Of a stretch of DNA of 30,575 nucleotides, positions 10,622 through 13,165 are shown piece after piece (the stretch's first letter is position 1; each line of letters opens with the position of its first letter). A program made the translations under genes and the position numbers. Below the pieces are notes generated by a model. It was given only the letters and a program-made list of their open reading frames with translations. It was not told the origin of the DNA and made no database searches. This DNA comes from a virus, in IMG/VR virus record IMGVR_UViG_3300033146_004663, positions 1-30,575 of that record; one strand, written 5' to 3'.

Positions 10622-11071
10622 ATGTCTGCTTCAAATAATAATGCAGTAAGTTGGACTTGGAGAGCTATAATTGACGACCTTGAAGATGTTACTTTCAAGC
10701 TGAAAACTTGCCCTATCCCTGGTTTGGCGTGTAACAATATAAATCTATACTCAGCTGATGAATTTCTCTTGCCTACAAGTGGTGATAGGCTGGGATTCAA
10801 TCCATTTGAGATTGAGTTCTTCATAGATGAAACCTGGGAAAATTATATCAAGATTCATGAGTGGATCTTGAGGTATGCCGCCGATGGAGTAGTAGAAACC
10901 AAAGATATCACTATTCAACTTCTCAATAACGTCAATAAGCTGATTAGAACATTTTATATGCAAGACTGCTTTCCAATTAATATGAGTGACGTATCGATGA
11001 CTACAATCGATGATGATTCATATTTGTCTGTTACTACTGAGTTCGCATATTCCAAATGGTCTTTTGTTTGA
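10622..11071 (+). CDS. Tail-tube-fold protein (gp19-like), 3' end at IS607 junction
   Basis: 149 aa from the ATG at 10622 (AAAGGATTTGAT precedes it; an in-frame ATG at 10511 lies inside the ligase gene). The pattern is PIPGL, then TSGDRLGFNPFEIEFFID, then ETWENYIKIHEWI, then paired beta strands near the end. That resembles the tube fold of contractile-tail proteins (T4 gp19, gp54 or gp48 class), in which a strand pair and a helix link tube subunits. The C-terminus is SKWSFV followed by TGA supplied by the inserted element. Joining the far flank instead restores SKWSFVD and TAA. So the insertion cost one residue. Confidence 0.45.
   Translation: MSASNNNAVSWTWRAIIDDLEDVTFKLKTCPIPGLACNNINLYSADEFLLPTSGDRLGFNPFEIEFFIDETWENYIKIHEWILRYAADGVVETKDITIQLLNNVNKLIRTFYMQDCFPINMSDVSMTTIDDDSYLSVTTEFAYSKWSFV
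11057..11068 (+). repeat. 12-bp direct repeat, left side of IS607 element
   Basis: TGGTCTTTTGTT here is repeated exactly at 12803-12814 on the other side of the element. It includes the GG dinucleotide that IS607-type serine recombinases often use as crossover core. The exact crossover point within the 12 bp cannot be read from sequence. Confidence 0.75.
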
Positions 11072-11099
11072 GCAACAACTAAATCATTTAAATATATAC

Positions 11100-11672
11100 A
11101 TGATTAAGATACAATGGAAAACAGCGTACCAACTGGCAAGGGAAGAAGGAGTCCAACCTCAAACTATTAGACGTTGGATTTCTTCAGGAAAATATGAACT
11201 TGTAAAACGAACCAAAGGCAATGATTACCGTGTCGGGTTTGAGGTTAATTGCACTAATATCATATATGCCCGTGTTTCGTCTTCAAAACAAGTTCAATCA
11301 CTTGAGAATCAATTAAAGATTTTAAGAAAGGAGGTACCTGATCATGAAGAAATCAAAGACATTGGTTCTGGCTTCAACTTTAAACGAAAAGGCTTTAAAA
11401 CCCTTCTGGAACGAGTCTTGCAGGGAGACAAGCTCAGAATTATGGTTACCCACCCAGACCGGTTTACAAGATCAGGATATGAATTCATTAAATGGATCAT
11501 TGAATCATCTGGAAGTTCAATCCAATCATTGGATGACGCAGATAATGATGAAGAACAATTCGACACCTCTACCCTCATATCTTTTGTCACCTGCTTCTGT
11601 TCGTCCTTTCATGGAAAAAGGGGTGCCAGAGTTAAGGCAAGTAATAACCAAAAAGATCAGGATCATTCCTGA
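11100..11672 (+). CDS. tnpA: IS607 transposase TnpA (serine recombinase)
   Basis: 190 aa from the ATG at 11100, although its ribosome binding site is weak. It cuts and rejoins the element ends by a covalent serine link. Residues 6-45 form a MerR-type helix-turn-helix (KTAYQLAREEGVQPQTIRRW). The resolvase-like catalytic domain starts at about 54 with IIYARVSSSKQ, where Ser60 is the expected nucleophile, and continues with SLENQLKILRKE, DIGSGFNFKRKGF and VTHPDRFTRSG. It ends in a FHGKRGARVK stretch typical of the family. Length is usual. It overlaps tnpB by 62 bases in another frame. The protein looks intact. Confidence 0.9.
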   Translation: MIKIQWKTAYQLAREEGVQPQTIRRWISSGKYELVKRTKGNDYRVGFEVNCTNIIYARVSSSKQVQSLENQLKILRKEVPDHEEIKDIGSGFNFKRKGFKTLLERVLQGDKLRIMVTHPDRFTRSGYEFIKWIIESSGSSIQSLDDADNDEEQFDTSTLISFVTCFCSSFHGKRGARVKASNNQKDQDHS

Positions 11673-12744
11673 GAACGAAGAAATATACACGGCTGCATGT
11701 GACTTGGCCAGGGCCTCTTACAATATGTGCATATCTGCATATATCAATTACAAAGAGGATGTGAGAACTGACCCTGAGATTAGGCATGATGTTACAGCGT
11801 CTTGTAAAGATTGGCAATTAGTAATCGCTCATATTACCGATGGCTCTGCCTACAACGCTAAAATAACCAAACAAAAAGTAATCAAAGAGAGAACCAAAGG
11901 CAAGAAATGTGGCTATCATTTCAAAACCAGAAAGGATAGCAGGCAAGGTTTTAATATCTCCAAGCTTCCAAAGAAATGGATTTACCCCCAAAAACTTGGC
12001 CCGGTTACATTCCTTGAAGAAATCCCTGAATATGCATTTGGTAGATCAGCAAGGGTCATCACAGAATATGGAGAATGGTACTTATGTTGTCAGGATGTCA
12101 TCATAATTCCCAAGATCAAAGCTCGAAAGCTCAGTGCTGTAGCCATTGATCCTGGTGTGAGAACATTTGCAACAACCTACTCTCCTGATACTGTTTGTGA
12201 ATATGGAGCAGACTATGCAAAGCAATTAAAGGTCATTCAGGTGGAGTTGGATCATGCAATTTCACAAAGAGCTTTGATCTTGAATCAAAAGAAGCAATAT
12301 AAGAATATGCAATGGTACCAAGACAAAATCAAGCATTGGACAAACACGATAAACAAGTGCAAGATTGATGCAAGAAATTTGATTGATAACATGCATAAGC
12401 AAATTGCAGCTCATTTAACTAAAAACTATGATGTGATTTTACTTCCAACATTTGAAGTTTCTAATATGGTTGACAAGCAAAGACGGTCAATCGGAAGAGA
12501 AACTGTTCGTGGAATGTTGGGCTTGAGTCATTTTAGGTTTAAGTGCATATTGAAATGGCATGCAAAGAAACGTGGGAAACTGGTTTTGGACGTGAATGAA
12601 AGTTATACATCCAAAACCAATAGTTTCACAGGCGAATTGATGGATATAGGTTCTAAGAAGCAATTTAAGCACGATGGACAGACATTTGATCGTGATATTA
12701 ATGCCGCAAAGAACATATTCATCAAACATATCAAAATAAAGTAG
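11611..12744 (+). CDS. tnpB: TnpB, RNA-guided nuclease with rearranged RuvC site
   Basis: 377 aa from the ATG at 11611, which gives the usual TnpB N-terminus (VITKKIRIIPENEEIY, then ARASYNMC). TnpB uses an RNA from the element's right end to cut DNA at sites where the element is absent, which favours its retention. RuvC-I Asp180 is in AVAIDPGVRTF. The usual RuvC-II Glu position is Pro279 (ILLPTFEVSNM), and a Glu appears 51 residues later (VNESYTS, Glu330). RuvC-III is FDRDINAAKNI (Asp360/Asp362). This shift is the arrangement reported for Fanzor-like proteins. The zinc finger that normally has two CxxC pairs has no cysteine here (KTNSFTGEL, then FKHDGQTFD). Confidence 0.88.
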   Translation: MEKGVPELRQVITKKIRIIPENEEIYTAACDLARASYNMCISAYINYKEDVRTDPEIRHDVTASCKDWQLVIAHITDGSAYNAKITKQKVIKERTKGKKCGYHFKTRKDSRQGFNISKLPKKWIYPQKLGPVTFLEEIPEYAFGRSARVITEYGEWYLCCQDVIIIPKIKARKLSAVAIDPGVRTFATTYSPDTVCEYGADYAKQLKVIQVELDHAISQRALILNQKKQYKNMQWYQDKIKHWTNTINKCKIDARNLIDNMHKQIAAHLTKNYDVILLPTFEVSNMVDKQRRSIGRETVRGMLGLSHFRFKCILKWHAKKRGKLVLDVNESYTSKTNSFTGELMDIGSKKQFKHDGQTFDRDINAAKNIFIKHIKIK

Positions 12745-12802
12745 CGTACACTTTAATCGGGACTGCAACCAGTTAGTTCGGGTTGTTGCGATTTACAGTA
12801 CG
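12745..12802 (+). ncRNA. Candidate omega RNA / right-end structure
   Basis: Directly after the tnpB stop, three nested stems are visible: CGTAC/GTACG (12745-12749 with 12798-12802), AATCG/CGATT (12755-12759 with 12789-12793) and CAACC/GGTTG (12766-12770 with 12781-12785). The structure ends 1-3 bases before the GG at the element boundary, so the flanking TCTTTTGTTGATTAAA would be the guide. Known TnpB omega RNAs come from this position; the assignment is by place and fold. Confidence 0.6.
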
Positions 12803-12814
12803 TGGTCTTTTGTT
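12803..12814 (+). repeat. 12-bp direct repeat, right side of IS607 element
   Basis: TGGTCTTTTGTT, exact copy of 11057-11068. On this side it continues into GATTAA, which restores the last codon (Asp) and stop of the interrupted gene. Confidence 0.75.
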
Positions 12815-12865
12815 GATTAAATATCCCCAAGAGTAACTTACAACTGGATTGCAAAGGGGAATCCT

Positions 12866-13165
12866 ATGATATCAATTTACGAGTGGATGAAATCGAATGT
12901 AATGGGGGCTTTGATTGTTGGTGTAACCTTAATATTCATTGGAATGACGTTTGACTGTAGAAGTGGCCTGGCAAATTTGCGCACTGAAACCAGAACATCG
13001 AACATTCGACATGAAGAAAGATTAGAAGCGTATGCCAGAAGCACAAAAACAGCTATCTTTGAAATCAACAAACAACAGGATTACATCAAAGTGGAAATTA
13101 GTGAAATGAGAAAGGATATGAATCAGAAGTTCAATTTCATGATTGAGCATTTAGTTAAAAATTAA
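12866..13165 (+). CDS. Small membrane-anchored coiled-coil protein
   Basis: 99 aa, ATG at 12866 behind AAAGGGGAATCCT. One hydrophobic segment at about 12-31 (VMGALIVGVTLIFIGMTF) and a charged helical remainder (NIRHEERLEAYARSTK and DYIKVEISEMRKDMNQKF) that looks like a coiled coil. The layout fits phage lysis accessories such as inner-membrane spanins or holin-like proteins, but no family motif is visible. It was probably next to the gene at 10622 before the insertion element arrived. TTAAATA at 12817-12823 may be its late promoter. Confidence 0.55.
   Translation: MISIYEWMKSNVMGALIVGVTLIFIGMTFDCRSGLANLRTETRTSNIRHEERLEAYARSTKTAIFEINKQQDYIKVEISEMRKDMNQKFNFMIEHLVKN

Follow-up and report, generated by a model that had tools for sequence, protein, structure and literature searches.

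The IMG/VR virus record IMGVR_UViG_3300033146_004663 supplied the 30,575-nucleotide stretch analysed here (hereafter the window), a piece of a T4-like phage genome carrying genes for UvsX, a DnaB-like helicase, ligase, tail tube, UvsY, a DNA helicase, head closure and baseplate wedge. At the end of a tail gene lies tnpA (11100-11672; this and all features below are on the plus strand), which encodes a 190-residue IS607 serine recombinase with the catalytic motifs YARVSSSKQ and HPDRFTR. The product scores 113.7 bits against the NF033518 equivalog (cut-off 110) and matches PF00239 with an E value of 3.5e-16. Starting inside tnpA, in its +1 frame, is tnpB (11344-12744, 466 residues). Its RuvC and target-nucleic-acid-binding (TNB) domains are recognized by PF07282 above the cut-off (43.8 bits) and by fold matches to 8iaz and 8h1j, while the OrfB_IS605 match is weak and that to NF040570 (guided_TnpB; 79.5 bits, E value 2.9e-22) falls below the cut-off of 100. 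A covarying RNA structure at 12745-12804 follows tnpB directly. Such an RNA and an IS607-family TnpA beside tnpB place the protein among the TnpBs of IS607 elements, and tnpA was also found in nearly all relatives for which upstream sequence exists. The whole IS607-type element (tnpA, tnpB and the right-end RNA) would run from 11057 to 12804 with TG or GG as core dinucleotide. Its right end was taken from an alignment with relatives whose own ends come from paired-copy comparison, and its left end from a direct repeat. We conclude that the locus is very probably an IS607-family mobile element seated where the tail gene ends (its 3' side), coding a putative RNA-guided nuclease of a zinc-less "pro-Fanzor" type with the RuvC triad Asp269-Glu419-Asp451.

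A first-pass annotation of the window had proposed a TnpB at 11611-12744 in which the glutamate of RuvC-II has moved as in Fanzors. The 377-residue translation of that interval does contain ILLPTFEVSNM, VNESYTS, KTNSFTG and FKHDGQTFDRD. Counted from the ATG at 11344, its Asp180, Pro279, Glu330 and Asp362 become Asp269, Pro368, Glu419 and Asp451. In an alignment that included genuine canonical TnpBs (such as L150, with VIEDLNVSGM), Pro368 (12445-12447) fell in the canonical glutamate column and Glu419 (12598-12600) in the column of the moved glutamate (Ealt), just as had been proposed. Of the 74 aligned sequences, 65 have P in the canonical column, 7 have E and 2 have G. The canonical glutamate is thus not conserved in the group: all 65 non-redundant Fanzor-like prokaryotic members have proline there, with the moved glutamate conserved alongside. 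Because proline is fixed across the group, we regard the change as a settled rearrangement and not as a mutation of the window copy. The Ealt column holds E in 67 of 74 sequences and is invariant in alignments A3 to A5. The RuvC-I aspartate, Asp269 in the D-P-G at 12148-12156, is invariant (74/74), as is Asp451 (12694-12696). The annotation had offered two residues for RuvC-III, Asp360 and Asp362 in its numbering; since Asp360 varies, Asp362 is the RuvC-III aspartate. Fanzors and pro-Fanzors have been characterized by a DPG in RuvC-I together with Ealt (PMC10711439), and the window has both: IDPGVR at Asp269, and Glu419 followed by six residues (E-SYTSKT-N) before the place of the first cysteine.

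Perhaps a protein that has lost both its zinc site and the canonical glutamate only binds DNA and represses a gene, as a TldR-like, nuclease-dead binder would? The canonical glutamate is indeed missing, and RNA-guided transcription factors related to TnpB are known in phages (PMC13418256). However, TldR proteins have lost RuvC catalytic residues, whereas here both aspartates and the Ealt glutamate are present, and practically every group member has them, those from elements with an intact tnpA among them. Retention of the triad is not what one would expect of a dead binder, and the window gene lies within a transposon, not beside a regulated gene. We consider this alternative unlikely.

The second feature claimed for the protein, loss of the CxxC pairs of the zinc ribbon, also held: no CxxC is left in the window protein, and the TNB loop (12616-12693, TNSFTG..FKHDGQTFDR) is without zinc cysteines. 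Among the matches listed, at least about 50 of the 65 non-redundant group members are likewise zinc-less. Most of these carry a TSKTxSWxG motif in place of the cysteines, the typical sequence being TSKTxSWxGe...lGG.k.i......DRDiNGA, where zinc-finger members have TSKTCsxCG...C..C. We applied to our sequences the patterns with which Yoon et al. had searched (CxxC...CxxC): 8 of 62 matched, and none of the 50 zinc-less ones. Hence the published pro-Fanzor pattern could not have found zinc-less members, because it requires CxxC..CxxC. No description of the zinc-less type was found in the open-access literature, to which our reading was confined. Fanzor's bacterial relatives apparently include a large, undescribed zinc-less branch.

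We modelled the protein with AlphaFold2, using an alignment of 62 window and locus sequences from which three phage-collection rows were left out. The predicted local distance difference test (pLDDT) score was 84.1 and the predicted template modelling (TM) score 0.81; pLDDT was 87-92 in the zinc-less TNB loop, and the greater part of the N-terminal domain scored about 80-91. The TNB domain has lost its four zinc cysteines, and in the model it keeps its fold. Its best match in the PDB was mimivirus Fanzor2 (L79, 9b0l; E value 1.2e-19, 496 columns, TM score 0.65), followed by ISFba1 and then by ISDra2 TnpB complexes. The predicted structure thus agrees with mimivirus Fanzor2 at the fold level, and Asp269, Glu419 and Asp451 would come together in the active site. 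Mimivirus Fanzor2 is also the best sequence match and shares DPG and Ealt along a near-full-length alignment, but it is encoded by a eukaryotic virus, retains its zinc finger and is only about 20% identical. Fanzor2 proteins are encoded by eukaryotes or eukaryotic viruses, whereas the window is from a T4-like phage. Canonical TnpBs (ISDra2, ISFba1) belong to the same RNA-guided nuclease family and have the same RuvC/TNB/WED-REC architecture; they differ in having the glutamate in its canonical place, a zinc finger and no N-terminal extension.

Loss of the cysteines could also reflect drift in a dying phage element. Decay is seen in some relatives: the tnpB of Vibrio phage 355E48.1 is broken by a stop, and several tnpA copies are broken. 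Yet some 50 non-redundant relatives from several phyla lack the cysteines in the same way and consistently carry one motif in their place, and the zinc-less region is confidently modelled. In the window tnpA, tnpB, the ribosome site and the RNA stems are all intact. A decaying insertion is therefore improbable as the source of the zinc-less loop.

The annotation had described a moved glutamate without a zinc ribbon in a T4-like phage element. The combination is not peculiar to such a phage: bacterial IS607 elements from several phyla commonly have it. Zinc-less members among the matches listed come from cyanobacteria, Pseudomonadota (Thiomargarita, Vibrio, Pseudoalteromonas, Salipiger), Campylobacterota (Thiovulum), Chloroflexota, Latescibacterota, Bacteroidota, Poribacteria and many phages. 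A single-sequence search for relatives in viral contigs found none, and alignment-based searches were needed. In trees built without the zinc-finger columns, the window protein grouped with zinc-less proteins from Pseudomonadota, Campylobacterota and phages, in a clade supported by 99 in a quick tree and 100/100 in a careful one; mimivirus Fanzor2, itself a long branch, was placed beside the group as a whole. Six sequences gathered as canonical controls (L159, L164, L168, L171, L172, L177) proved to be group members and were left out of the controls. The suggestion that the protein might represent a distinct TnpB group is borne out insofar as its clade is strongly supported, but the zinc-less character alone defines no single clade, as the zinc state changes at least three to four times on the trees. 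We dropped a single, clean loss of zinc for the same reason; either the loss is ancient or it happened more than once.

The known proteins closest in kind are the pro-Fanzor TnpBs of cyanobacterial IS607 elements, which share with the window protein the RuvC-I DPG, Ealt, an adjoining IS607 TnpA and a right-end RNA (Yoon et al. 2023, PMC10711439). Unlike them, the window protein has no CxxC...CxxC zinc finger; they have been called exclusively cyanobacterial (PMC10711439), whereas the window's clade contains no cyanobacteria.

Other zinc-less copies were noted in passing. Giant sulfur bacteria (Thiomargarita, Parabeggiatoa; L038-L058) carry many zinc-less TnpBs, some without tnpA. Vibrio phages F100, 355E48.1 and F88 (L003, L004, L007) have a second, more distant zinc-less TnpB beside the thymidylate synthase gene, with tnpA decayed.

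Where does tnpB begin? The annotation had noted neither the overlapping tnpA nor the right-end RNA and direct repeat, and the start at 11611 that it gave did not stand: the ATG at 11344, 9 nucleotides downstream of a GGAGG Shine-Dalgarno sequence within tnpA (11330-11334), adds a conserved, confidently folded N-terminal domain. The resulting overlap with tnpA is 329 nucleotides long (11344-11672). Overlap of IS607 open reading frames (ORFs) is frequent (PMC6188088). All 42 of the relatives whose tnpA is intact have tnpB in the +1 frame, which is open and mostly overlaps tnpA by more than 120 codons. The open +1 frame averages 162 codons against 41 in shuffles that preserve the TnpA protein and its codons, each locus standing at 0.04 or below. 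The N-terminal domain (residues 14-76, 11383-11571) has the motif PFWN..C....LWLP....SxxW, in which P20, W22, P36 and S60 are at least 90% conserved among 62 sequences.

The upstream frame might nonetheless be a mere shadow of conserved tnpA, with the true start near 11611, and at most loci the N-terminal motif does overlie conserved tnpA codons, which forces some similarity. The motif is kept, however, at eight loci without tnpA, where the old tnpA frame carries 4-14 stops: a profile built from tnpA-overlapping loci only matched the TnpBs of all eight (E values 1e-10 to 1e-3), and it did not match canonical TnpBs or reversed controls. The frame is also open four times longer than in codon shuffles, has a good ribosome site and is folded in the model. 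We judge the shadow explanation to be very unlikely. Since the motif persists without tnpA and is absent from canonical TnpBs and controls, selection acts on the N-terminal domain as a portion of TnpB, and the overlap is dual-coding for tnpA and tnpB. This explains why gene callers mis-start or miss tnpB. A PDB search with the N-terminal motif matched nothing outside the core, and we found no description of a conserved TnpB domain encoded by a tnpA overlap in the open-access literature.

In the window's clade the right-end RNA consists of an outer stem (12745-12749 paired with 12798-12802), a middle stem and an inner hairpin. Covariation among 12 relatives supports this structure. Alignment cells changed on both sides of a pair numbered 25, whereas shuffles gave 7.2 and slid controls no more than 5, and 9 of 16 pairs showed two-sided changes. 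The outer stem is CGUAC/GUACG in the window and CUUGA/UCAAG, CUUAG/CUAAG, CUUAC/GUAAG or CUUC/GAAG in others. Overall 93.7% of cells were paired, a figure that leans to the proposed structure because the structure was picked with the same sequences in view; the case for it rests on the compensatory changes. Folded by itself as a single strand, 12640-12880 gave no significant signal (z -1.7), and an Rfam search with the element gave no match. We conclude that 12745-12804 is probably a guide-RNA scaffold. By the layout of IS607 right-end RNAs (PMC10711439), the presumed guide segment would be 12805-12824, in the right flank at the start of the copy of the tail-gene 3' end.

That copy is part of a 12-bp direct repeat. 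The window holds exactly two copies of TGGTCTTTTGTT: one at 11057-11068, where it supplies the final tail-gene codons (K-W-S-F-V-stop), and one at 12803-12814, which starts where the RNA alignment puts the right end and is followed by GATTAA, so that it would read W-S-F-V-D-stop. Two copies were found in 0 of 100 shuffles, and a common stretch of this length in both end regions in 0 of 1000. A relative (L037) has a comparable 10-bp repeat, AGACCTTTTA, beginning at its right end. To our knowledge, such direct repeats are not expected from IS607 elements. The tail gene is followed directly by UvsY in two related phages, Pseudomonas phage Cygsa01 and FEC14; at the place of the W-S-F-V-D reading Cygsa01 has F-I-D-D, but FEC14 does not. 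The simplest reading of these sequences is that the element inserted within the final tail-gene codons and that its left end re-supplies them.

The closest annotated relatives of the window element offer a comparison. Vibrio phages F88 and 184E37 (L002) encode a protein, annotated merely as "transposase" or "hypothetical protein", that is 37-40% identical to the window TnpB, zinc-less and Ealt-bearing, and is accompanied by the same RNA fold. Unlike the window element, theirs is inserted before the tape-measure gene, and its tnpA is detected over the C-terminal two thirds only. The F88 element breaks into the final codons of a gene, for which it provides a new, short end; the junction is exact to within 2 nucleotides. 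Phages F97 and K408 carry the uninterrupted site (L179 and L180 were compared), and their flanks are respectively about 98-99% (left flank about 99%) and 88-93% like those of F88. Because the element is present in F88 and the site empty in F97 and K408, elements of this kind move among close phages. In F88 some 240 nucleotides of unrelated DNA follow the element, and the start of the tape-measure gene is re-supplied. Elsewhere, two copies that are 92% identical (L009, L010) lie on a single 259-kb viral contig, with no detectable tnpA.

Several observations speak against our assignment of the window element. Neither DNA similarity nor a tail-protein search revealed an empty site for it, and an exact search for the presumed target gave 45 matches, all unrelated. 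The protein has F where W stands in most zinc-less members, and it forms a long branch (1.29); for these two reasons it could be drifting. Despite the long branch, the tnpB reading frame and every catalytic residue are intact.

If the element behaves as its parts suggest, TnpA would excise it and insert it at a dinucleotide. The 3' end of the transcript would fold into the right-end RNA and, reading into the right flank, serve as guide. TnpB with this RNA might then cut element-free sites that match the right flank, and repair of the cut could copy the element in, favouring its retention and spread by homing.

A broader proposal is more speculative, and we hold it to be possible but doubtful: that the zinc-less TnpBs with Ealt form a major lineage of bacteria and phages missed by cysteine-requiring searches; that their N-terminal domain, apparently matched in the mimivirus Fanzor2 fold, was overprinted within tnpA, so that a portion of the Fanzor fold would have originated in a gene overlap; and that phage copies use the nuclease for homing into structural genes at their 3' ends, restoring the end of the gene.

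Apart from that proposal, the sequences compared here show that the Fanzor-type active site is neither tied to a zinc finger nor restricted to cyanobacteria, widening the pool of possible sources of eukaryotic Fanzors. The group also offers small natural proteins, predicted to be nucleases, without a TNB zinc site and with a defined candidate guide-RNA scaffold, and the TnpB N-terminal domain encoded within tnpA is an evolutionary link between the two genes.

Absent between the corresponding genes of Cygsa01 and FEC14, a 99-residue ORF with a hydrophobic N-terminal segment lies between the window element and UvsY, at 12866-13165.
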